From Clostridia bacterium (GTDB lineage: Bacteria; Bacillota; Clostridia; Christensenellales; Borkfalkiaceae): a DNA stretch of 41,007 bases. This document shows positions 8,260-35,622 of this stretch, piece after piece; the first letter of the stretch is position 1; the number at the start of each line of letters is the position of its first letter. The notes under the pieces were generated by a model. The model did no database searches, was not told where the DNA came from, and worked only from the letters and a program-made list of their open reading frames with translations. The position numbers and the translations under genes are program-made. The stretch is from assembly GCA_021204585.1 (NCBI GenBank), contig JAJPZC010000120.1, positions 1 through 41,007 of the forward strand, given 5' to 3'.

Positions 8260-10446
8260 CTACACAAGGAACAGATTTTCCCCGTCCGTGCGCTCCCGCA
8301 CTACATCATACTCCGCCCCGTTCAGCCCGTACAGCCCCGCCACGAGGGCGTCCAGCTCATCATACAGCCGCTGTATCTCATCCCCACGGGACGCAGAGCA
8401 TATCCTGTCCGCAAGAATCTCAACATCTCTCTGTGTGCATCCATCTGCATATGGTATGGGTATTTGCTCTATATGAGACCTGAGAACCTTGATGGAATTG
8501 TACTGCTTGCGGAACCAGAACTGAGCCACCCTGGAGTTTAAAACGGCCATTACGTACTTGCAACTGAGGCCCGGAAGCTTTGGAATAAGTATGTTGCAGC
8601 TGTTCAAAGACAGTGTGCCCTGATCGTCATATGCAAATACAAGCTGGCTGCATATGAACCGGTACAAAAGCTTCTCCGGGGCCCTGTAACACTCCTCCGG
8701 AGCAACCTGCTGGAACCTTTCCGGGGTGAAAGCAATGTACCTTCCGGAGGGCATGAAACGGAACTTTCTGAGGTCTGAACCTCTGAGCACCATCTCATTT
8801 GAGTCAGTCTTAACCGAGGACACGTATCCCTTGTTATTGCCTGTAACGATGCCCAGGGCAAAGGTTGCGTTATCCTTCAGATACCAGACGTCTGACAAGC
8901 TTCCAAGCTTGCGCAGGACGGCATATTCCTCTTCAGTGATGTTGAGATTGAAGCATTCCGGCGAGATGCCTCGCCCTGCACAAACAATTGTTTGTACACC
9001 GCTCCAAGACACCTTCGCGCTGCAAAGGTACTCCCCCGTCTCTGTGTTTTTGTGGGTGCCGCACGCAGTGCGCTCCAGGGTCATGACCACACAGGGGCAC
9101 TGAACTCCGCTAAACACGTTGCCCATGTACCGGATGCTCCGTATCTCTGCCATGTCCAGGATAACCTGTCTGACCTCCTGATGGGATCGCACGTTAAGCA
9201 CTGCCTCCGGAACGACAAAAGACATGACGCCGCCGGGTTTCAATGAGGACAGTGCTTTTTCTATGAACACATCATATGACTCCGTCCTGGAGCCGCATGC
9301 TGACCTATACATGCCGTCCAGCACAACCGTCTCCACTTTGTCAAAGGCATACCCCCACGGAGGATTGCCTATTACGCACTCGAAGCCGCATGAATCATAC
9401 TCCGTAAGATAATCTGATACTGTCATGTTCCTGTAAAGGATGTCTGTATCCTTCAACCCATACTTCAATGCAAGATTGATCCGGGCCACCATGACACTGA
9501 CAGCATCCACATCATTGCCGTACACGTTTTCAATACGTACGCAGTCCGGCAGGCGCAGCAGGAAGTTGCCCGTGCCACAGCACGGATCCAGTATTCTGCC
9601 CTGCAGCATGCCCTCTTTCATGAGGTCTGAGACCATAACATCCACAACCTCAGCAGGGGTGTAATAAGCCCCTGCTGCCTTGCGGTCTCTTGCGTTCAGG
9701 CATGAGATGTACAAGAGACCCAGCACATCATTGCACCCTTCCGGCGCATACGGTATCTCATAAAGCTCCGGGTGCCTGGAGATGTAATCCCCTGCGTGGA
9801 TGCCCTCCAGGAGATCCAATACCAGACTAGCACAGGGAAGGCCACTGCCGTCTCTGTCTGCGAGGAAATCTCCTAGGGACATTGCCATGCCGTGCTCTGC
9901 AGAAAGCATCTGGACAGCTGCAGATGCCAGAACTGTGCGTATGAGCCCGTCTGTTATCTCTATATGGCTGCCTTCTATGTATGCCAGAGTGGCTGTTACG
10001 GAGGCAACGCCGTCACAGCCGGAGTCCAGGTATAAGCTGTATATGCCGTTGCCGGATACGTACTTCTTGTTGCGCCGGCTCTTCAAGGCATTGTTTGACC
10101 CGCTCTCAAGCTCAGCTTTAAGCTTCATAATGTATGACGCATCAAACTCAGGTGATCTGCCGCTTCCATCTGACGGAACCAGTTTGCCAAGCTTAAGCCA
10201 GTTGCGGCCTGTTGCTGCGGATACACCAAGCTCATGACATACATCATTCAGAGACAGCATCTGTCTGGTTCTTGAAGGCATGAAAAGTCTGGCGACCGGC
10301 TTAGGGGCATTCCCCGGGATGATCCATCTGCCTCCTACTCTTTGCGCTCCTTCTATTCGTGCAGCCTCACACAGCTGCTGAATTATGCGTACAGACATTC
10401 CGAACTTGTCAGAGGCTTCTTTGACGGTCATATACTTTACTGGCAT
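8260..10446 (-). CDS. HTH-domain N6-adenine DNA methyltransferase (Eco57I/TaqI-like), apparently solitary
   Basis: A DNA adenine methyltransferase with an unusual front end. Residues ~5-60 (YMTVKEASDKFGMSVRIIQQ...) and ~70-130 (MLSLNDVCHELGVSAATGRNWLKLGK) look like two helix-turn-helix domains of MerR/excisionase type. The catalytic part carries AGAYYTPAEVVDVMV (motif X), ILDPCCGTGNFLL (motif I, SAM) and CVIGNPPWGYAF (motif IV, catalytic NPPW). The C-terminal third resembles the TaqI-type target recognition region. I use ATG 10444-10446, with GAGGT upstream; earlier in-frame starts lie inside the promoter. 728 residues. No nuclease motif (PD-ExK) is evident and no restriction gene is adjacent. 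Roles could be epigenetic regulation, an anti-restriction orphan, or a type IIG relic. Confidence 0.85.
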   Translation of the reverse strand: MPVKYMTVKEASDKFGMSVRIIQQLCEAARIEGAQRVGGRWIIPGNAPKPVARLFMPSRTRQMLSLNDVCHELGVSAATGRNWLKLGKLVPSDGSGRSPEFDASYIMKLKAELESGSNNALKSRRNKKYVSGNGIYSLYLDSGCDGVASVTATLAYIEGSHIEITDGLIRTVLASAAVQMLSAEHGMAMSLGDFLADRDGSGLPCASLVLDLLEGIHAGDYISRHPELYEIPYAPEGCNDVLGLLYISCLNARDRKAAGAYYTPAEVVDVMVSDLMKEGMLQGRILDPCCGTGNFLLRLPDCVRIENVYGNDVDAVSVMVARINLALKYGLKDTDILYRNMTVSDYLTEYDSCGFECVIGNPPWGYAFDKVETVVLDGMYRSACGSRTESYDVFIEKALSSLKPGGVMSFVVPEAVLNVRSHQEVRQVILDMAEIRSIRYMGNVFSGVQCPCVVMTLERTACGTHKNTETGEYLCSAKVSWSGVQTIVCAGRGISPECFNLNITEEEYAVLRKLGSLSDVWYLKDNATFALGIVTGNNKGYVSSVKTDSNEMVLRGSDLRKFRFMPSGRYIAFTPERFQQVAPEECYRAPEKLLYRFICSQLVFAYDDQGTLSLNSCNILIPKLPGLSCKYVMAVLNSRVAQFWFRKQYNSIKVLRSHIEQIPIPYADGCTQRDVEILADRICSASRGDEIQRLYDELDALVAGLYGLNGAEYDVVRERTDGENLFLV

Positions 10447-10467
10447 GGCAACCTCAATGCTGAGAAC

Positions 10468-10499
10468 TACATTAATGTACTCATTGTAGGACATTAATG
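10468..10499. promoter_or_regulatory. Repeated ACATTAATG operator-like sites at the methyltransferase promoter
   Basis: A perfect 12-bp palindrome TACATTAATGTA (10468-10479) lies just downstream of the -10. Its core ACATTAATG recurs exactly 22 bp away (10491-10499), in the promoter spacer. Two turns of helix spacing around the -10 suggests binding by a dimeric repressor, perhaps the gene's own HTH domains. Confidence 0.55.
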
Positions 10500-10512
10500 A
10501 TAGGATAGTCAA
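10483..10512 (-). promoter_or_regulatory. Methyltransferase gene promoter
   Basis: TTGACT (10507-10512 complement), 18 bases, TACAAT (10483-10488 complement). The start site would be about 30 bases before the chosen ATG, which rules out the longer ORF starts. Confidence 0.75.
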
Positions 10513-11043: not shown

Positions 11044-11072
11044 TAGACAAGATTTTGTTTCTCGGTTATAAT
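11044..11072 (+). promoter_or_regulatory. Promoter of the ABC/YwaF operon
   Basis: TAGACA (11044-11049), 17 bases, TATAAT (11067-11072); 5/6 and 6/6 matches to consensus. It yields a leader of about 145 bases. Confidence 0.85.
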
Positions 11073-11178: not shown

Positions 11179-11223
11179 GTTCAGCAGATCCTTTTAGAGT
11201 GTGTGCTAGATTAGGAGACTGGA

Positions 11224-13533
11224 ATGAGTTACCTGGTATGCTTCGGCACGGCGGCCGTGATCATTGCATTGTATGTTGTGTTCCGGCGCTGGGTTGAAAA
11301 ACATATAAGCATAGTCCTGAAAGTACTTTCGGGACTTCTTTGCGTTGTGTTTTTCATCAGGTACTTCGGCTCCAAGGGATCTCTCCTTGCAGATGTGGTG
11401 GCGGTAGGGACCAATAATCCGTTCGAGTCAGGGTTCGTGTGCGCCATGGCCTCCATCTGCGTATGGCTGGAGATTGCGTCCATTACAGTGACGGAGATAT
11501 TCCCGTACTTTGAGCACCGGCCCTTGATGCACAACCTTTCAAAGACTTTCTGCCTCGTGTCGGCCGTGCTCAACATGGTGTTCCTGCGCTGGACAGCGTA
11601 TACGTTCACGGGTTCGTACGGGCTGGATTATGTTTCTGCCTTCATGGCCATTGAGGTGGCAATCATATTCTGCATGTCGCTCCATACGCTGTGGGCGGAC
11701 AAGAGCTTCTGGGTTGCGAAGGGCCAGCTGAAGGACTTCCTGGTGTTCCTGCCGGTGGTCCTTGTTGTGGCGCTTCCCCCCTACACCCTCCAGTCTTTGT
11801 TCGGCAACATGGGCTACTACTATACGACAAGCCTTGCATCATACCACCGCATGTACCTGTACATTGCGGTTCTGGTGTTTGTCGGAATGTACATGCTGCT
11901 AAGGCGTCATGACAGGGAGTTCGTCAGGATGGTGCTCCTGTTTATGTCGCTGGCGGCGCTTGTATCCTTCCTGTATGACTATGACTTCTCAAGGTTTGCG
12001 GAGCCCTCAATGTGGCCGCTGCACCTGTGCTGCGCAGTTCTGTTTGTGCTGCCCGTGGTGTTTATGTTCCGCATCAACTGGCTGTACTACTTCACGCTGT
12101 TTATAGGGGTTGCGGGCGCAGTGTTTGCCATGTTCGTTCCGAACACCGCAACGGAGCTTGGAGCTTTGTCCCCTGACGTGATGAGGTTCTGGATAAACCA
12201 CATCGCAGTATTTGCGCTTCCAATCCTTGCCGTCTTCTGCGGCGTGTACGAACGTCCGAAGGTGAAGGATTTCTTATATTCGCTGATAGTGTACGCAGCG
12301 TACTTCCTGGTCATAAACTTCGTGAACGCATGGTTTACGGCACTGTATGACACCAGCGTGGACTTCTTCTTCACGAACGGCACGGTTATAATGTCCGTTC
12401 TGGGCGCAGAGAGCCTGAAGAACATTGTATGGGTTGTCCACCTTGGAAACCTGGAGCTCACTTTCATGTACGCATACCAGCTCATATTCCTGTTTGCGTA
12501 TGCGGCGCTGTGCGCAATATGGTGGGCCGTCCTCATATGGATCTTTCATGCGCAGGACATATACCTTGCGTCGGAGGACAGATACAGGGAGATTAAAGTT
12601 GAAGAGTACGCTCTGTGCCAAAAGTACGGCCAGAAGCGCCCGGGAGACTGTATGAACGAAGAGACAAAAGACAAACTGGTTATAAGAGACTTTTCCAAGC
12701 GGTACGGCCGCAACACATTCTACTCCACGCATGACATCAACATAGAGGTTCCTGCGGGAGAGATATGCGGCTTCCTCGGAGCCAACGGAGCGGGCAAGAG
12801 CACAACCATAAAGTGCGTCGTAGGCATCCAGCCCCCCACTGCCGGCACCATAGAGATAAACGGCTATGACATAGAAAAGCAGCCTGCGGAGGCCAAGGCC
12901 CAGATAGGCTACGTCCCGGATCACTACGCTTTGTATGAGAACCTCACCGGCCGCGAGTACATAAACTACGTAGCAGACCTGTACGGCATCTCAAAGGCAG
13001 AAAGGGACGCCAGGCTGGATGACCTTCTGGACAAACTCACCATGAAGGACGCAATAGACGCCAGGATCTCATCATACTCCCACGGCATGAAGCAGAAGGT
13101 TGCCATAATGTCCGCCCTCGTCCACAACCCCAAGCTGTGGATACTGGATGAGCCCCTCACAGGCCTTGATCCCAACTCCGTGTACGAGATCAAGGAGTGC
13201 ATGAAGGAGCATGCGCACAAAGATGGCAACATAGTCTTCTTCTCCACGCACCTTCTGGACGTTGCGGAGACGGTCTGCGACAGAGTCCTTATAATAAAGC
13301 ACGGCCACATCATAGCAGAGGTTCGGGTGGCAGACCTCAAGGCCCGCGGCGAGACGCTGGAGCAGTTCTACCTTCAGGTCATCGGCGAACACAACGAGGG
13401 CCACTCCCCTTACCCGGACGAAGACAGCACCAGGAAAAATACCTCTCATCCCGGCGGCCTGTTCTTCAACCGTCCCAGAAAGTCCAAGCAGGAAGAGAAG
13501 CCTGCAGAGGCCAAGGACGCAGCAGAGAACTAG
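11224..13533 (+). CDS. Fusion of YwaF/TMEM164-like membrane domain with ABC transporter ATPase
   Basis: Residues 1-~450 are an integral membrane domain with about a dozen hydrophobic segments. The central MWPLHLCCAVLFVLPVV and following YYFTLFIGVAGAVFAMF stretches resemble the YwaF (TIGR02206)/TMEM164 family. Residues ~480-740 are an ABC ATPase: Walker A GANGAGKST at ~519, IGYVPDHYALYENLTG, signature YSHGMKQKV, Walker B LWILDEPLTGLDP, and STHLLDVAE with the switch His. A charged tail of ~45 residues ends the protein. AGGAGACTGG precedes the ATG. At residue 477, exactly at the domain boundary, an in-frame ATG (12652) is preceded by GGGAGACTGT, almost the same ribosome binding site; an ATPase-only product is therefore possible. 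It heads an operon with an ABC-2 permease, so it likely energises export; the substrate is unknown. Confidence 0.88.
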   Translation: MSYLVCFGTAAVIIALYVVFRRWVEKHISIVLKVLSGLLCVVFFIRYFGSKGSLLADVVAVGTNNPFESGFVCAMASICVWLEIASITVTEIFPYFEHRPLMHNLSKTFCLVSAVLNMVFLRWTAYTFTGSYGLDYVSAFMAIEVAIIFCMSLHTLWADKSFWVAKGQLKDFLVFLPVVLVVALPPYTLQSLFGNMGYYYTTSLASYHRMYLYIAVLVFVGMYMLLRRHDREFVRMVLLFMSLAALVSFLYDYDFSRFAEPSMWPLHLCCAVLFVLPVVFMFRINWLYYFTLFIGVAGAVFAMFVPNTATELGALSPDVMRFWINHIAVFALPILAVFCGVYERPKVKDFLYSLIVYAAYFLVINFVNAWFTALYDTSVDFFFTNGTVIMSVLGAESLKNIVWVVHLGNLELTFMYAYQLIFLFAYAALCAIWWAVLIWIFHAQDIYLASEDRYREIKVEEYALCQKYGQKRPGDCMNEETKDKLVIRDFSKRYGRNTFYSTHDINIEVPAGEICGFLGANGAGKSTTIKCVVGIQPPTAGTIEINGYDIEKQPAEAKAQIGYVPDHYALYENLTGREYINYVADLYGISKAERDARLDDLLDKLTMKDAIDARISSYSHGMKQKVAIMSALVHNPKLWILDEPLTGLDPNSVYEIKECMKEHAHKDGNIVFFSTHLLDVAETVCDRVLIIKHGHIIAEVRVADLKARGETLEQFYLQVIGEHNEGHSPYPDEDSTRKNTSHPGGLFFNRPRKSKQEEKPAEAKDAAEN
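12640..12654 (+). promoter_or_regulatory. Internal ribosome binding site and start at the fusion joint
   Basis: GGGAG, five bases, ATG (12652-12654), in frame with the fusion gene, starting MNEETKDKLVIRDF. The 5' start has AGGAG spaced seven bases from its ATG with nearly the same sequence between. It could give a separate 293-residue ATPase. Confidence 0.5.
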
Positions 13534-13585
13534 CCGGACCAATTGCCGGACCAATTGCCGGACCAATTGCCGGACCAATTGCCGG
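13534..13585. repeat. 12-bp tandem repeat, four copies
   Basis: Four exact copies of CCGGACCAATTG start right after the stop codon of the fusion gene (13534-13581), followed by a partial CCGG. Each unit holds the palindrome CAATTG. A short mini-satellite, likely variable in copy number between strains. Confidence 0.9.
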
Positions 13586-13785
13586 TCGGTTCATTTACAG
13601 GCGCATGCCTGGGGTCTACAGACTCGTTGGGTGCGCATAAACAAAGCATATAACGCCTTCATGGCACAATATAGAGCCGCATGCAGCGGCAATACAGAGG
13701 CCGCTTGAAGTGGCGGCACAGACAGGAACACAGCAGCAGGGCCCCTCCATGGGAGGGCACGCACACACACAGACAGAGGACAAGA
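13586..13785. other. Spacer between fusion gene and permease gene
   Basis: 200 bases without a recognisable gene, promoter or terminator. The genes are probably cotranscribed across it. Confidence 0.4.
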
Positions 13786-15444
13786 ATGAACGAATTCCGC
13801 ACGCTGTTTCAGATGCAGCTGAAAGAAAAAATGGATATCTCATTCCTGAAGAGCCCTGGGAGGATGACATTGAAGGTCCTCCAGTTTGTGATAGAGTTCG
13901 CCGTCGTGTGTGTCGTAGCCTACGTCATACTGTACCTGTGCCAGTACTTCAACCTCTTTGCGCCCTTGGGGCATTTGCCGGTGGGAGTCATGTCCGTCGT
14001 GTTTGCGGTCATGTTCCTGTTCACAATCATAACCTGCACGGTATCCCTTTCAAAAAACCTGTTCCAGAGCAGCGACAATGCCGTGCTGTTCGCACTGCCG
14101 GCGTCATCTGAGATGCTGTTCTTCTCAAAGCTTGCGGTGTATCTCATTAGCGAGATAAAGAGGACGTACCTGTTCCTCGTGCCGGTGTTCATAGCGTATG
14201 CCATACTGGTCTCTCTGCCGTGGTATGCGTACATATGGATAATCGTGATGCTTGGCATCTTTACCCTGTTCCTCGTGCTCTTTGCAGGCCTCCTCTCCAT
14301 CCCCATCAACTATATTGTAAAATTCTTCAACCGCTTCACAGTGGCAAAGATCGTGGGCGTGGTTGTGATCCTGGGCCTTGCGGTATGGTTCATAGTCTGG
14401 ATAGTAGGCATCATACCGGACAACGTGAACCTCGTAAAGAACTGGGTCATAATAACAGAGACGCTGCGCAATGCCGTAAGCTGGTTCCAGACGCATCTGT
14501 ACATATTCTATGCCTTCACCATGTTCCTTTGCGGCAGGTATGAGGGCCTCACCATAACGTTCTGGACCACGTACTCGTGGGCGGTCCTGCTGATACTCAT
14601 CGGCTGCATCGCTGCGCTTGCCGGGTTCAACTACCTCATCTCCCACTACCTCTACAACCGCGTGGCCGTTCCGCAGTACACGGACTCAGGGGAAAAGGAG
14701 CGCAAACCGGTCAGAAACCATGCACACAAAGGATTCGCATCGTCGTGCATATATGAGTCCTTAAGGCTTATGCGCGCAGGCGGAGTCCTCGGCTCCACGC
14801 TTGCCTCAATCATAATAATACCGTGCGTAACGGTCCTTATAAACACCATATACTCCGCTATAGCCACAAGGACTTTGGGCGACTACATGATAGTAGCCTT
14901 CAACGTGATGATCGTGCTCCTTCTGGCCACGTCAAGCAACGTGTGGACGTCATCCGTATACAGCAGGGACGGAGAATCGCTGCCTCTTCGCAGCGCAATG
15001 CCTCAGAAGCCCTTCCCCATGCTCTTCTCGAGGCTCACCTACAGCTTCATAGCGACCATTCTTATGGTTGTGCCCTCCTGCGTCATCTTCATGATAATGG
15101 AAGACATGGCAACTCTGGACGGCATCCTGCTTGCCATCTTCATGCTTTTCATATGCTTCGGCCACATAATCTGGAGTGCGGAGATGGACTTCACCCATCC
15201 GAGGATTGAGGCCTTCAAGACATCCGGTGCTGCTGCCACGAACTCAAACGAGGCTAAGTCCGTTGTGCTCTCGTTTATCTTAAGCGCCGTTGCATTGGGA
15301 TTAGTCCTGTTCTTCCTCTTGGATACAAGCAAACTGCCGTATGTGCGCATTCTTGTCATTGCAGCCGTCTTCCTCGCATACAGGATAGTGACATTCTGGT
15401 TTAAATCAAGGACTATGTACGGCTTCGGGGAGGATAAAGAATGA
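13786..15444 (+). CDS. ABC-2 type permease, multi-spanning
   Basis: A 552-residue membrane protein with about 12 hydrophobic segments in two halves, split by a polar loop around residues 300-335 (RVAVPQYTDSGEKERKPVR). The N-terminal MNEFRTLFQMQLKEKM, an amphipathic cytosolic helix before the first membrane segment, is typical of ABC-2 exporter subunits. I recognise no narrower family. The start ATG 13786 has AGAGGACAAG before it; the ORF track start 35 codons earlier would add an Arg/His-rich tail with no ribosome binding site. It is paired with the ATPase of the preceding fusion gene, and its stop overlaps the ATG of the next gene (ATGA). Confidence 0.85.
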   Translation: MNEFRTLFQMQLKEKMDISFLKSPGRMTLKVLQFVIEFAVVCVVAYVILYLCQYFNLFAPLGHLPVGVMSVVFAVMFLFTIITCTVSLSKNLFQSSDNAVLFALPASSEMLFFSKLAVYLISEIKRTYLFLVPVFIAYAILVSLPWYAYIWIIVMLGIFTLFLVLFAGLLSIPINYIVKFFNRFTVAKIVGVVVILGLAVWFIVWIVGIIPDNVNLVKNWVIITETLRNAVSWFQTHLYIFYAFTMFLCGRYEGLTITFWTTYSWAVLLILIGCIAALAGFNYLISHYLYNRVAVPQYTDSGEKERKPVRNHAHKGFASSCIYESLRLMRAGGVLGSTLASIIIIPCVTVLINTIYSAIATRTLGDYMIVAFNVMIVLLLATSSNVWTSSVYSRDGESLPLRSAMPQKPFPMLFSRLTYSFIATILMVVPSCVIFMIMEDMATLDGILLAIFMLFICFGHIIWSAEMDFTHPRIEAFKTSGAAATNSNEAKSVVLSFILSAVALGLVLFFLLDTSKLPYVRILVIAAVFLAYRIVTFWFKSRTMYGFGEDKE

Positions 15445-15869
15445 AGAAGTCATCCATTTTCCTCGTCATAGTAATCTGCATAGTCTCTTTCATCGTCATA
15501 TCCTTCTTCGGCCAGGCCGTGGACAACGGACAGTTCAAGACGTACATGACCAGCATTGAGATAACCAACGACACCTACTCCATCGCTGGCGGCAGCGACT
15601 ACATAGTTGTGGACTTTGATGATGATGAAGGCTACGGCTCCGTGATCGTGACCTATGATTACACCCCTGATGATGCTTCAGACTACACCGTCCAGTTCTC
15701 CCTTTCGGACATCACATACATGGACGGAAATGCGGAGCATGCAGAAGATGCCATAACAGTCAGCGGAATGGGCGAGGTGATATTCCTGACCCGCGCAACA
15801 GTCACCCTCACCATCCAGGCAACAGACGGCGGCGGAGCCCAGGCCTCCGTACTGATCATCTGCTCATAA
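15441..15869 (+). CDS. Membrane-anchored Ig-like protein of the ABC operon
   Basis: 142 residues. Residues 6-24 are a hydrophobic segment after a KK start: signal anchor or uncleaved signal peptide, placing the rest outside the membrane. The remainder alternates like a beta sandwich (VIVTYDYTPDDASDYTVQFS ... VTLTIQATDGGGAQ) and resembles bacterial Ig-like (BIG) repeats; this is a judgement by eye. An acidic DFDDDEGYG loop could bind calcium. The ATG overlaps the permease stop by four bases, so translation is coupled and the protein very probably belongs to the transporter. No homologous family is recognised with confidence. Confidence 0.75.
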   Translation: MKKSSIFLVIVICIVSFIVISFFGQAVDNGQFKTYMTSIEITNDTYSIAGGSDYIVVDFDDDEGYGSVIVTYDYTPDDASDYTVQFSLSDITYMDGNAEHAEDAITVSGMGEVIFLTRATVTLTIQATDGGGAQASVLIICS

Positions 15870-16051
15870 CTCCTGGCGGGCTCATTGCATATCTGCAGGA
15901 CTTGGAATATCTGCAGGCCTTGCGGCCTTACGCTCCACTGACTTTGTACTTCTGGAATTGCGCAACCTCATTGCGCATGTTCACATATAAAACACTAAAT
16001 CCACACCGGGCCAAAGCATTAGTGCTTCGGCTCTAAGGAGGCAACAATCAT
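15870..16051. other. Spacer before the lipoprotein gene, with 16-bp direct repeat
   Basis: ATATCTGCAGGACTTG (15889-15904) recurs 18 bp later as ATATCTGCAGGCCTTG (15907-15922). Further on ATTGCGCA occurs twice, 16-17 bp apart. No convincing terminator or sigma-A promoter was found; TATAAA near 15985-15990 lacks a good -35. Confidence 0.5.
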
Positions 16052-18499
16052 ATGAAAGCAGGTTTCAAGATTACAGCCACAGTATTGTCTTTAGCGTTCG
16101 CATCTCTTATCGTCCTGCCAGCATGCTCCGGGTGCAATAAGGACAAAGGCGATTCCGGAACTGAAGTATCCCTTGAATCAACAAACCTGTCCGGCGTTTA
16201 CACCCCGGGTGCTGACATCAACTTCTACGACATCACTATGTCCATAAAGGTCTCCTATAGTGACGGCACCTCCAAAACGCTCAACAGCTTCGTCTTTGAA
16301 GACGAGAATTATACGTCCAGCACCAGTGCGGATTTCATTGTCTACACAAACGGCTTCTATGACAGTGCAGTGGCAAAATCCAATTCCGGCATAGCCGTGG
16401 GTGAATACCCCATCACATGCAAGCTTGTTGAAAACAGCAAGACATATGATCTCGGAATGACCATAACTGTTACTGATGACATCGCTGGGAACTTCTCGCT
16501 TATCAGCGCTGCAGCTCCCTCCCTGTATACGACATACCAGCAGAATCTCACGAGAGTAGGGGTCGACGCCTCAAATTCCACCTATGAGAGTTACTTCTAC
16601 GAGAGCCCAGAGTGCTACGAAGTCGGTGATGACAACCCGTTCGTATTCTCCCCGTCTCTCCTTCTGCTGAAAAACGGCGCCAGCGTTACGGACTCCGGCA
16701 GCATGGCATACCTGTATGACCCTGCCGTCACCTCAACCGTTTCATACAACGACTCAGTTCTTGACGCAAACAATGACTATGTCACAATAGACGGATCCAG
16801 TTTCCAGTTCACGGAAAAAGCCATCGGCAAGGAATTCACAGTTTCAGTAACTCCTGCCTTATACTCCGGCAACAGCAACATTACCGCCTACTCCATGACC
16901 GTAAAGGTTGAGGACGGCTACAACGTATACACTCCGAAGGATCTTGGCAGAATAAGCCTCGCAGATGATAACATTCAATACGATGAATATCAGTTAGGCA
17001 AAGCCGGTGGAGCTTCATGGTATGAAGGACTGGACACAAGCGGAGCACCTAAGCTTACAGATGAGGTTGATATAAGCGGCCTTTGGAAGACTTTCCTTGA
17101 GGGAAAAGGTGCAGACGAGTCTGGACTTGTACCCGTTCACGGAATTTTCATCCACTCAGACCTCACGGTAACCCAGTCAGACATCCCATCAGAGTATTTT
17201 GTAGGTGAAGAGGAAGCCCAGGCTGCGTCAAAAATCTTCGGTGCAAACTATGATGAACTTGTAGGTTCACTCAGAGACTGGGGACTTGTATACATACATT
17301 ACATGGGCAATAGTGAGAGCTTCACTTTCAACGGCAACCTGTTCAACATAGACCTCTCACAGATAGGCATAACCATGACATGCACGGACGTTGAGAACTA
17401 CTACTATCCCGCTAATTATACAGGCATCTACTACGGCGGTTCCAATGTGGCTTTCACTTTCAACGGCAAAACCAATGAAGCAAGAAACAACGCAGCGGTC
17501 GCTTCATCGGTAACCTTTGAAAACGTTGAGTCAATAGGCAACACGTCAGGGCTTCTGAGCGACACCGAGGGCAAGGTCGAAGGCTCCATGCAGTTCCTGA
17601 GATCTGAAACCACTCACATTGAAGTTGACAACTGCATCATAAAAAACCAGCGCATTGCATTCTATTGTGAGTATACAGACAGCACTTATGAAGGATTTAC
17701 AGTCAACAACACCAAAGTGTATGACTGCTACAACGGCGTAATTTCGTCATTCCTGTCCGCAAAGAACTCAATACACAACTGTGAGTTCAAGAGATTCGGC
17801 GGCCCCATTTGCATCGCTGCATGCAACAACGGCTATAAAGAAGGTTATTGTTACTCAGGCATCACGATTGACGAAAACACTGTGGCGGAAAACTACATGT
17901 CCGGCAATGAAGCCTGGTTTACAATCAGAGGCATAGATGCTGCCATAGCTCCCATAAAGAACATTGCTTCATACTTTGATCAGTACGGCAAGACATACCT
18001 TAAACCTGACGGCACGTTCAACCTTTATTTCGCAATAACGGACATAGATTACGCAAACATTGATAACATTGACTCCCCTTATCTGTACGGAAACTTCTCA
18101 TACGGCAACGGAACCCAGCTTTATCTGGATAACTCCACAAGCTATAATACCGCAACTGAGGGCACAGACGAATACTATGCATCAGTTATAAACGAAGCCA
18201 TATATACTGAATTGAATGATACACTTTTGGGCAGTTCAGTTGTAGACCTGGTTAACTCTTATATCCCTATTTTCCTGACCAACACCGGCGAATTGCTCTT
18301 CCTCTTTGTGAATTTGGGTGATTACAGCCAAATAGTTTTGAAGACCCTGAATTCAGGCAATTGCAATGCCTTATATAGCTTAGCGATTGCTCCTGAGTTC
18401 ACTGGCTTCAACGAAGATGACACCATGATATACTTCGTATATCCTTATGGGAAGATGATGGTAGGCGTTGCCCTGGAGCTCTTTGACGTCGAGGATTAA
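16052..18499 (+). CDS. Large secreted lipoprotein with Ig-like and beta-helix-like regions
   Basis: A 815-residue exported protein. The signal peptide ends in the lipobox LPAC with the lipidated Cys at position 25, followed by SGCNKDKGDSG, so it is anchored to the outer leaflet. Residues ~40-300 contain Ig-like stretches (MSIKVSYSDGTSKTL, YPITCKLVENSKTYDLGM, EFTVSVTPAL). Residues ~420-640 have the look of a right-handed beta-helix (FTVNNTKVYDCYNGVISSF, NSIHNCEFKRFGGPICIAA). An exact AAGGAGG precedes the ATG. It follows the ABC operon in the same direction and ends at a strong terminator, so a functional link is likely but unproven. It may bind surface glycans or a transported ligand. AT content is a little higher than in the housekeeping genes. 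Confidence 0.85.
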   Translation: MKAGFKITATVLSLAFASLIVLPACSGCNKDKGDSGTEVSLESTNLSGVYTPGADINFYDITMSIKVSYSDGTSKTLNSFVFEDENYTSSTSADFIVYTNGFYDSAVAKSNSGIAVGEYPITCKLVENSKTYDLGMTITVTDDIAGNFSLISAAAPSLYTTYQQNLTRVGVDASNSTYESYFYESPECYEVGDDNPFVFSPSLLLLKNGASVTDSGSMAYLYDPAVTSTVSYNDSVLDANNDYVTIDGSSFQFTEKAIGKEFTVSVTPALYSGNSNITAYSMTVKVEDGYNVYTPKDLGRISLADDNIQYDEYQLGKAGGASWYEGLDTSGAPKLTDEVDISGLWKTFLEGKGADESGLVPVHGIFIHSDLTVTQSDIPSEYFVGEEEAQAASKIFGANYDELVGSLRDWGLVYIHYMGNSESFTFNGNLFNIDLSQIGITMTCTDVENYYYPANYTGIYYGGSNVAFTFNGKTNEARNNAAVASSVTFENVESIGNTSGLLSDTEGKVEGSMQFLRSETTHIEVDNCIIKNQRIAFYCEYTDSTYEGFTVNNTKVYDCYNGVISSFLSAKNSIHNCEFKRFGGPICIAACNNGYKEGYCYSGITIDENTVAENYMSGNEAWFTIRGIDAAIAPIKNIASYFDQYGKTYLKPDGTFNLYFAITDIDYANIDNIDSPYLYGNFSYGNGTQLYLDNSTSYNTATEGTDEYYASVINEAIYTELNDTLLGSSVVDLVNSYIPIFLTNTGELLFLFVNLGDYSQIVLKTLNSGNCNALYSLAIAPEFTGFNEDDTMIYFVYPYGKMMVGVALELFDVED

Positions 18500-32323: not shown

Positions 32324-34111
32324 TCAGAGGCTCATAAGGTAGTCCTCTGCGTTGATGTACCGGATGTCTCCTATGTAGCCGGACTTGCCGCGGTATATGA
32401 CGCCCTTCTCGGTAATCTTGCCGAAACGGCGCTCTGTGGCACGGAGCTTGTCCTCGTCCGTAAGGTAGCGGGTCTGCTTCTGTGTGGTCTTCTCGCTGTG
32501 CTTTATGACGTATACCTTGCAGGTGAGCTCCTTGGTGTCTGCTATAACGAGGTCATATTCGCCGGCATCGAAGCAGAAGCGGCACACCTTCTTGTCCGGG
32601 TTGGCCATGAGGGTCTGGAAGAACAGGATGTCCTCCGTCATGTGCCTTGCAACCTGGTTCATTATCTTGTCCTGGGCATTCTTGCGCTTTGCAGCCGTTA
32701 TGGAGCCGAACATGTCATCCTGGATGAAGGTATCCACCATGTCCCTTATCTGCGTGTAGCGGATGCCGGGCATTGCGGTTATGATCCTGTACTCCGTACG
32801 GTTAGAGGTGTCTGCGAATTCAGTGTCCGTGGTGCGGAGATAGTTCATGCGCGCGAGGTATCCCTCTATCTCCCTCCTGTGTTCCATCTCCACGTCATCG
32901 CAGTGCAGGGCGGCGCCCAGTATCTCAAGCAGGTTGTCCGGGATGTAGCTTAAGTCTCCGGTTGAGTATTCCTCCTCAAGGAGTTCCTTGAGGAACACGC
33001 GGCTCTCCTGCGCAACAACAGCAGATACAGGGCCTGCGGCATCCTCCACGCTGTCTGCATCCACGCATGCGCCGCTTGCGCTTCCTCTGAAGCAGATGGC
33101 ATCCTGGATGTTCTTCTGTATGGCGGCATCCACGTACAGGCCAACGGAGGAGTCCGTGGCGAACACGAATCCCTCTTCGTCCTCGTGGCCCAAGTCCATA
33201 GTCCCGCCGTGCATCATGTACTCATCCAGATCCTTCACTCCCAGCGCTTCCACGCAGTCCTTGTACGGGATGTACGTGGTGTCCAGGATGATGCTTCTGT
33301 CTGCCATGCCCTCATCATGGCATATTATGAAGGCCAGCGAACTGGAGCCGGAGAGGACTATCTTCATGCCGCTCTCGGCATATGAGTCTGCTATGAGTGA
33401 GCATGCTTCCTTGAAGTCCGGCATGCTTGTAATTTCATCTATAAAGACGTACTTGTACCCGCTGCGCTCAAGCTCACGAAGGTCTGCATCCAGGTCATGA
33501 ATGCCGTCCTTGGGCGTGGCCAGAAGGTATGCGCACTGCGAGAACTGCTCCTCATCCATGTCCGCAATACTCTGGCGCATCATGGTGCTCTTGCCCGTCC
33601 TGCGCAGGCCGCAGAGGAACATTACCTTCCCGTATGAGCTCCCGTACAGGAAGTCCGTAAGCTTCCCGCAGCATGCACGCTTCTTTGTACCCTTCACAGG
33701 CGAAGCGAACTTCGCAAGGGCATCCCCCGTGCGAACGCTGAGCTTGAACTCGTATACCACAGGCTGCACGAAGTCCTCCAGGCCGTCATCCTCCGCATCC
33801 GTATACACCGGAGCAGGCACCGGAGCAGTCGCCGGAGCAGGCGCCGGCTTCTTAGGCCTGGGTGCCCTGGGTGCCGGAGGCACCTTCCCCTGCAGCTCCC
33901 TGAGCTCTGCGATATACGCACGCCTCTGCATTATCTTTGCCTTAAGGGCAGGCATCTCTGCCTCATCCACAAACTTCTCCCTGCGCTTGCCGTCTACCGT
34001 TGTCCTGTGGTAATAATACAGCTTGCCGTGTATGCGCTTGTGCGCTATGCTCCCTCCGGGAAGGGCGTCTATCTTCTCCTGCAGATCCTTGATCTTGTCT
34101 TCTCTGTTCAT
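32324..34111 (-). CDS. AAA_14/DUF4143-type P-loop ATPase with N-terminal accessory domain
   Basis: 595 residues. The ATPase part has Walker A GLRRTGKSTM near residue ~170, Walker B YVFIDEIT, the sensor-like LSGSSSLAF, and a C-terminal region with CFDAGEYDLVIADTKELTCKVY, which looks like the nuclease-fold-like DUF4143 tail. In front are ~75 residues (NREDKIKDLQEKIDALPGGS ... KLYYYHRTTVDGKRREKFV) that resemble a basic module on many clostridial ATPases, then a Pro/Ala linker (PKKPAPAPATAPVPAPV). GAGG five bases before ATG 34109-34111 sets the start, with a strong promoter above. Members of this family are common yet poorly understood; some lie in defence or mobile contexts. An Ala/Ser-rich insertion (RGSASGACVDADSVEDAAG) interrupts the middle. 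Confidence 0.78.
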   Translation of the reverse strand: MNREDKIKDLQEKIDALPGGSIAHKRIHGKLYYYHRTTVDGKRREKFVDEAEMPALKAKIMQRRAYIAELRELQGKVPPAPRAPRPKKPAPAPATAPVPAPVYTDAEDDGLEDFVQPVVYEFKLSVRTGDALAKFASPVKGTKKRACCGKLTDFLYGSSYGKVMFLCGLRRTGKSTMMRQSIADMDEEQFSQCAYLLATPKDGIHDLDADLRELERSGYKYVFIDEITSMPDFKEACSLIADSYAESGMKIVLSGSSSLAFIICHDEGMADRSIILDTTYIPYKDCVEALGVKDLDEYMMHGGTMDLGHEDEEGFVFATDSSVGLYVDAAIQKNIQDAICFRGSASGACVDADSVEDAAGPVSAVVAQESRVFLKELLEEEYSTGDLSYIPDNLLEILGAALHCDDVEMEHRREIEGYLARMNYLRTTDTEFADTSNRTEYRIITAMPGIRYTQIRDMVDTFIQDDMFGSITAAKRKNAQDKIMNQVARHMTEDILFFQTLMANPDKKVCRFCFDAGEYDLVIADTKELTCKVYVIKHSEKTTQKQTRYLTDEDKLRATERRFGKITEKGVIYRGKSGYIGDIRYINAEDYLMSL

Positions 34112-34140
34112 AATGGCCTCATTATCTCCCACTGGCATAA

Positions 34141-34263: not shown

Positions 34264-35622
34264 TTATACGCCCAAGTCCTCGTACAGATCCTCGCCGGTT
34301 ATAAGGTTGGGTATGCCCTCACAGTCCGGCTCAAAGCCGCTGAGGGATATGAACCCCACACTGGAGGGGGACAATCCGTCCAGTGCCGCCTCCCTGGTGC
34401 GCTTTTCCAGCATGTCCCTTGTGGCCTTCTCCCTTGAACAGATGGGAATGTACACCTCTATGTCATTCCCTCTCTGGAGGGCTACCTCGTACTCGCTGTA
34501 CTCTATGCGGCACCCTAAATCCCTTTTATGACACCATGTGCCTATGGCCGTGACGCCGTCCATCGCAAGCACCTCTCTCTGCAGGCTGAAGTACTCCCTG
34601 CACATCTGGGTGAACCTCAAAGCAAAGAAACTCGCGAAGTCTTCCTTGACATGGCACTCATAAAAACAGTCTCCGTGCCCCCAGCTTTCTATCTCGTGCT
34701 CCTTGTCCCATCCGTATATGTACCGGTACTTGAACATGACTGTGCCGTCCGTGATCTCATACCAGGACCTCTGCATATCCCCAACAGGCGTTGTCCTGCG
34801 TACGGCACCCTCTGCCTCCAGACGGGCCAGCTGTCTTGCTGTTTCATCATCCGCAGGGATGTCCTCTCCGGCGTACACCCTCTTGCCCACAGCAAGGTCA
34901 TGCAGCACCGGATATGCCTGCGCCTCGTTGGCCGGGGCTCCTGTGGCAAAATACGTATGCCAGAATATGGCATTGGACATGTTCAACAGGCGTATGATGT
35001 TGTCCACCGGGGCATTCTTTGCCTCCATCCTGTCATTGATATACGGAGACCCTCCGCATACGGCATACATGAGCGCCTTGTCATACGGGGTGTAGTCCGG
35101 ATAAAATCCGGCGCACTCCAGATAGCTCATGTTATCCAGGTGCAGCACAAGATCCAGCTTGCCCATGATGTTCTGCTCCAGCCTGAGCTTTTTAAGCTCA
35201 TGGTCAGGGACAATGATGAAGACATGCAGGGTCTTGGTGTACTGGCTGAAAATCTTGCTGAAGGTCTCACCCAGCAGCTCATAGTTCCCGTTTTCCGCAA
35301 GCCGCTGAAAGTTATCTATGACAACAATATCGTTATCCCCGTCCAGATACCTGAATGACTCTTCAAGAGTTCTCCTGGCCTGCGGGTTGCAGAGCTCATA
35401 GCCCAGATCCATAATGCCGTCCTGCAGCCTCATCTCATTCTTCTCAAGGCCGTCTGACATGGGGTAAAAGAATATCGTGTCGTCCTTGCGGTATGATCCA
35501 AAGATCTCCCTCATAAACTCACTCTTCCCCTGTCCGCACTTGCCGCATACAAGCGCCACGCCGCCCGGCTGCTCCAGAAAGTCGTACACGGCCTGCATCT
35601 CAATCCTTCTTCCAACGAACAT
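34264..35622 (-). CDS. Archaeal-type ATPase (ATPase domain plus DUF234-like C-terminus)
   Basis: 452 residues. MFVGRRIEMQAVYDFLEQ is the usual lead-in, followed by Walker A CGKCGQGKSEFM and Walker B DIVVIDNFQRLAE. A winged-helix-like stretch around residues 235-290 (LARLEAEGAVRRTTPVG) precedes a C-terminal domain with RIEYSEYEVALQRGNDIEVYIPI, again suggestive of a nuclease-like fold. AGGAGGGAATT precedes the ATG. It is a second, only distantly related STAND-like ATPase next to ATPase 1, but each has its own promoter and hairpin, so they are not an operon. The same architecture occurs widely in gut anaerobes; function unknown. Confidence 0.78.
   Translation of the reverse strand: MFVGRRIEMQAVYDFLEQPGGVALVCGKCGQGKSEFMREIFGSYRKDDTIFFYPMSDGLEKNEMRLQDGIMDLGYELCNPQARRTLEESFRYLDGDNDIVVIDNFQRLAENGNYELLGETFSKIFSQYTKTLHVFIIVPDHELKKLRLEQNIMGKLDLVLHLDNMSYLECAGFYPDYTPYDKALMYAVCGGSPYINDRMEAKNAPVDNIIRLLNMSNAIFWHTYFATGAPANEAQAYPVLHDLAVGKRVYAGEDIPADDETARQLARLEAEGAVRRTTPVGDMQRSWYEITDGTVMFKYRYIYGWDKEHEIESWGHGDCFYECHVKEDFASFFALRFTQMCREYFSLQREVLAMDGVTAIGTWCHKRDLGCRIEYSEYEVALQRGNDIEVYIPICSREKATRDMLEKRTREAALDGLSPSSVGFISLSGFEPDCEGIPNLITGEDLYEDLGV

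Follow-up and report, generated by a model that had tools for sequence, protein, structure and literature searches.

A TMEM164-type membrane domain fused to an ABC ATPase, with a conserved candidate internal start, in gut Clostridia

The gene at positions 11224-13533 of the DNA studied here is probably a dual-product gene: two formerly neighbouring genes appear to be joined in one frame, and a second start inside that frame would serve a permease with both a tethered and a free form of the same ATPase, in a role connected with lipids or lipoproteins. The DNA is a stretch of 41,007 nucleotides (hereafter the window) from Clostridia bacterium (Borkfalkiaceae; assembly GCA_021204585.1, contig JAJPZC010000120.1, positions 1 to 41,007, forward strand). 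At the level of sequence comparison the fusion, the operon, the codon-level conservation of the internal start and the existence of split relatives are established. Gene callers would annotate one long protein at this locus; the comparative signal suggests that the whole order also makes the ATPase alone.

Architecture of the fusion gene

The frame 11224-13533 (plus strand) is single and intact over its 769 codons, as an open reading frame check confirmed. Judging from the frame, the profile matches and a structural model, it encodes a six-helix N-terminal module, a TMEM164 domain, a long helix and an ABC ATPase. A preliminary description had reported two families in one frame and a Shine-Dalgarno (SD) sequence with an ATG at their joint, and we could confirm both (ATG at 12652). 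The 5' start is preceded by the SD sequence AGGAG (11213-11217, duplex energy -7.3), and a putative sigma-70-like promoter, TAGACA-17-TATAAT, lies upstream of the operon on the same strand (11044-11072; pattern match only, 11 of 12 consensus positions).

The same description had assigned residues 1-460 to one membrane domain of the YwaF/TMEM164 type. The family match is real: in a Pfam profile search residues 209-430 (11848-12513) matched PF14808 with 64.5 bits, above the curated cut-off of 25 (E 1.3e-17). Residues 1-194 (11224-11805), however, form a further, family-specific six-helix module which the description had not separated and which we recognised by its own profile matches in relatives and by the helices of the model. 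We also considered a duplicated TMEM164 domain for this module and rejected it, as the match was only short and weak. The fusion resembles the known TMEM164/YwaF proteins (PF14808; TIGR02206; ATGY superfamily) in scoring above the Pfam cut-off, in its catalytic-type Cys and His and in its six to seven membrane helices. Stand-alone members have 240-290 aa, whereas the fusion adds the six-helix module in front and the ABC ATPase behind, and in an NCBIfam profile search it did not reach the cut-off of TIGR02206 (intg_mem_TP0381; 50.9 compared to 75).

The AlphaFold2 model of the fusion (mean pLDDT 77) contains a 52-residue helix, residues 416-467 (12469-12624), that runs from the membrane toward the ATPase. 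The C-terminal half, residues 477-769, is an ABC ATPase as had been proposed (PF00005, E 1.3e-32). Its nearest NCBIfam models are DrrA and GldA and its nearest solved structures are ABCA transporters. The ATPase motifs, namely Walker A (GANGAGKS), the signature YSHGMKQK, Walker B (LDEP with its Glu, E643) and the H-loop H676, are kept in 81-82 of the 82 fusions. At the Q-loop position (residues 564-566, 12913-12921) we observed V-P-D in all 82 fusions, with the usual Gln replaced. A sequence search with the membrane part gave no similar solved structure, and a fold search with the whole fusion gave matches to ABC ATPases only.

Age and origin of the fusion

With the membrane half as query we found 214 relatives in public genomes and fetched the best 80 of them, all of which (80/80) read into the ATPase without a stop. 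We also surveyed 396 genomes of the order, in which the 55 strong matches were without exception open frames of 667-857 codons. The fusion records are gut or rumen MAGs, labelled Clostridia or Christensenella and in a few cases Bacilli or Erysipelotrichia. Among 399 genomes sampled across the phylum we found no further fusion, the window's own aside. One option in the preliminary description was a recent fusion through loss of a stop codon. This is refuted, and an assembly artefact fares no better: the same architecture is present at 80 independent loci without stops, in many MAGs, and is fixed in several families of the order, while nothing was found in favour of either version. The fusion is old, and we assign next to no probability to a recent or artefactual origin.

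Split forms are rare, and none were found in 391 further genomes of the class. Two outgroup operons (L176 and L178) keep the order TM protein, ATPase, permease, anchored protein and lipoprotein of the fused type, but the first two are encoded by adjacent genes of their own, 15 and 39 bp apart. In a tree of the ATPases the fused ones group together (88/93) with the split ones outside; one fused sequence (L060) was carried as outgroup in this tree, which leaves the reading unaffected. Because the two outgroup operons hold the two genes side by side, the simplest history would be that a TMEM164-type gene and the ATPase gene next to it in an operon fused once and that the start of the second gene was kept. 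A few lineages would then have lost this start later.

At 306-309 aa, the small anchored protein of L176 and L178 has double the length seen with the fusions, and the profile of the fused type finds no match in their lipoproteins. Unfused relatives of 460-515 aa that carry the TMEM164 domain with an N-terminal extension, and that have no adjoining ATPase gene, were seen at L048:5070-6551, L036, L037, L181, L183 and L184. The first of these lies on contig C160 of the window's own genome (G000), and for the last two the next gene is the same, with 334-339 aa (ALKIIF/ALRIIF..HHLY). For most of the unfused relatives of 470-515 aa the ATPase gene is not beside them.

The start signal at the joint

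In the window's own gene the joint carries GGGAG at 12642-12646, with a spacing of 5 nt to the ATG at 12652, and across the family this is the strongest SD column of the gene. The duplex energies of the two sites are equal (-7.4 at the joint, -7.3 at the 5' start). A product begun at the joint would be the ATPase alone (293 aa, 12652-13533), as predicted from the PF00005 match and from the ATG with SD in the family. The 10 nt in front of the joint had been described as nearly a copy of the 10 nt in front of the 5' start. We considered a meaningful duplication and rejected it; the resemblance is a coincidence, as a relative with 82% identity keeps the joint and differs in the 5' leader. Taken by itself, the codon signal for an internal start in the window is no more than suggestive (p ~0.11 for the joint SD compared to synonymous recodings), and so it is the family comparison that makes the case significant.

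For this comparison SD strength was computed as the pairing of the bases just upstream of an ATG with the 16S anti-SD core, and as a control each gene was recoded with its own synonymous codons. The joint column holds Met (ATG) in 65 of 82 fusions, though the adjoining residues vary. The mean SD energy was -8.1 for the joint ATG, compared to only -0.8 for 1633 other in-frame ATGs inside these genes and -5.1 for the first starts at the 5' ends. Synonymous recodings of the joint averaged -3.8 (Wilcoxon p 7e-12). The SD spacing is variable, and in about a third of the cases the core lies 12-13 nt from the ATG; when we imposed a strict spacing window the effect was smaller and still significant (joint -4.5, synonymous -2.6, other ATGs -0.3, p 0.002). 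We also scanned the whole gene in 31 sequences less than 60% identical, a clustering that removes kinship among sequences only partly. Columns 474-477 (window residues) showed the strongest SD and also the largest departure from the synonymous expectation, with -3.2 compared to an all-column average of 0.05 (sd 0.37). The mRNA around the joint was less structured than its synonymous versions (p 4e-8).

New genomes gave 12 usable fusions, after L144, L148 and L157 had been left out for mis-picked reading frames. Nine of the 12 had the aligned ATG, all with an SD <= -6, and two more had an ATG two codons on with an SD of -9.5. Loss of the aligned ATG is often accompanied by an ATG one or two codons away that has its own SD (L073, L074, L083, L085, L101, L103, L129). 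To judge from these alignments the joint start is under selection, with SD and start conserved beyond the protein's demands. This comparative evidence (SD, ATG, codon choice and mRNA structure) lends strong support to the suggestion that fusion and free ATPase both come from the gene; the opposite outcome named in the preliminary description, full-length fusions without a conserved internal start, is not what the relatives display. Translation from 11224 would yield the membrane protein with six-helix module, TMEM164-family domain, long helix and ABC ATPase, and translation from 12652 a cytosolic, untethered copy of this ATPase. That the cell makes both is our inference from the comparison, as is the stoichiometry of the complex considered below.

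The joint site could also be a site of pausing, where purine-rich codons slow elongating ribosomes after the membrane part and ahead of the ATPase so as to aid insertion or folding, and the ATG does not initiate. The site is indeed SD-like, and it falls precisely into the stretch that separates the last membrane helix from the cytosolic domain. However, a pause would not require the pairing of an ATG with an SD, and yet we found both at the joint in 66 of 82 genes, whereas of the equally strong SD-like sites (<= -6) in other places 2.5% are followed by an ATG. Furthermore, ATGs that have moved by one or two codons often have the SD in register, and the low local mRNA structure also fits initiation. 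We therefore consider an elongation pause unlikely. We judge it similarly improbable that the joint start is a relic of the ancestral separate ATPase gene, kept by chance or because the protein requires the linker E-P-M-N, with a free product of no importance. Split ancestors exist, the linker motif is kept as protein in one large subclade and most of the non-Met residues at the joint column are hydrophobic, all of which agrees with a relic. Against it, synonymous codon choice is constrained as well, over clusters less than 60% identical, and Met is retained while the preceding residue changes from P to C.

Our preferred reading, an internal start in use, does not extend to every lineage. Three or four lineages lack a good start in the vicinity of the joint (L054, L056, L066 and L068 copy 2; L119 and L124), and a free ATPase product is thus not universal. 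Genomes G726 and G727 hold start-less copies, and in each of them another operon copy retains the internal start. In the tandem operons of L068 (G727, contig C63) copy 1 (from 1604) still has ATG and SD at the joint and has lost H326, a putative catalytic residue of the TMEM164 domain, and copy 2 (from 5947) has kept the His and lost the internal start. These complementary losses suggest a division of labour between the duplicates.

Operon context and putative chemistry

Among relatives with a long enough contig the fusion is followed by a permease of ~550 aa (80/80), by a small protein that combines a single membrane anchor with a Big_2-like domain (73/73) and by a large lipoprotein (65/70). 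In the window the permease gene (552 aa, 13786-15444, plus strand) has its start set by homologues, as the frame itself opens at 13681. We detected 12 hydrophobic segments in two groups of six, which correspond to about 12 TM helices in two halves, and the halves share one short motif (hhalign E 0.004, a single match). PF16949 (ABC_tran_2) was matched by 13 of 19 permease homologues with a best value of 6e-10, and by the window's permease at E 0.41 only. The two groups of segments and the motif in both halves suggest a full permease within a single chain; with two six-helix halves such a chain would be expected to bind two ATPases. In its ATPase of the DrrA/GldA/ABCA type, and in the permease matches of the 13 homologues, the operon is similar to exporters built from an ABC ATPase and a PF16949-type permease. 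Usual exporters of this kind have a separate gene for the ATPase; in the fusion the ATPase is attached to a membrane protein resembling an acyltransferase, and an internal start is predicted to supply a free copy. Between the fusion and permease genes (13533-13585, plus strand) we found a 12-bp tandem repeat, GCCGGACCAATT, in 4.4 perfect copies that begin at the stop codon of the fusion and lie in an unusually long gap.

The gene of the small protein (15441-15869, plus strand) overlaps the permease stop with its start and encodes an N-terminal TM anchor and the Big_2-like domain. The lipoprotein gene (815 aa, 16052-18499, plus strand) is preceded by the SD sequence AAGGAGG (16035-16041). Its lipobox Cys, residue 25, is invariant in 22 aligned homologues, and 12 of these 22 have a Big_3-like domain. 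A NosD-like beta-helix was tried for the lipoprotein and found unsupported, as the AlphaFold2 model (pTM 0.79) weakly matches Ig/S-layer-like folds only.

TMEM164 has been reported to be a cysteine-dependent acyltransferase (PMC13276253). In the fusion the putative catalytic Cys lies in the motif PLHLC (H267-L-C269, 12022-12030), of which H267, L268 and C269 are invariant in 82/82 fusions. The putative catalytic His, H326 (12199-12201), is kept in 81/82 and also occurs in stand-alone members, so that an active-site-type Cys and His are common to the fusions and to the stand-alone YwaF-type proteins. H208, R209 and D380 are likewise invariant in 82/82. By homology and these conserved residues, the fusion may carry out acyl transfer. 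With Cys and His kept and a lipoprotein in the operon, lipid modification coupled to export, as raised in the preliminary description, is plausible. LhaT (YpjA, DUF1405), which N-acetylates lipoproteins in Bacillus, has been placed in the same ATGY superfamily as TMEM164/YwaF (PMC12345273), and with its lipoprotein gene the present operon offers a second parallel to it. It belongs to a different Pfam family, and neither PcrB nor DUF1405 was found in the window's genome (93% complete); LhaT-type N-acetylation with PcrB was therefore rejected. As Lgt is present in this genome and PcrB and DUF1405 are not, a phospholipid or another donor would be likelier than the LhaT donor.

The TMEM164 part might instead be no enzyme at all and act as a membrane anchor or regulator of the ATPase, with the free ATPase tuning the number of pumps. 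The absence of PcrB and DUF1405, the known LhaT-type acetylation pair, would agree with this, as would the loss of H326 in one tandem paralogue (L068 copy 1). The conservation of H208, R209, H267, C269, H326 and D380 and the Cys and His in common with the stand-alone proteins argue for an enzyme, and we regard a mere anchor as possible but doubtful.

If the internal start is used as we propose, the permease could draw on one tethered and one free ATPase, or on an adjusted mixture of the two forms. The pump and the tethered domain would handle lipids or lipoproteins at the outer face, and the anchored Ig-like protein and the large lipoprotein would be partners or substrates; the substrate and the direction of transport we infer likewise. 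A more specific version, which we offer only tentatively, is an asymmetric machine of a two-halved permease with one enzyme-tethered and one free ATPase, in which ATP hydrolysis might drive the acyl transfer onto, or the export of, the lipid or lipoprotein. If the ATPase is indeed also made alone, the gene itself would fix the proportion of tethered and free motors in such an ABC machine, and TMEM164-family chemistry would be linked to an ATP-driven pump in gut Clostridia. A literature search returned nothing joining TMEM164-type proteins to an ABC transporter. The principle of an internal in-frame start is known, and its use here looks new. Cas11 (Cas11b), for instance, arises from cas8 by internal in-frame translation (PMC11899642). 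Both cases have one frame with an internal SD and start, and in the present gene, too, the C-terminal product would join the complex of the long form. They differ in the products: here an ABC motor is predicted as the free one, and the long form would be a fusion of membrane enzyme and motor.

Other genes of the window include a 750-codon frame on the minus strand at 8260-10512, which adjoins the operon and resembles a restriction-modification or N6-adenine methyltransferase protein (motif NPPWGY). A pair of P-loop ATPase-like genes lies side by side at 32324-34138 and 34264-35622, also on the minus strand.
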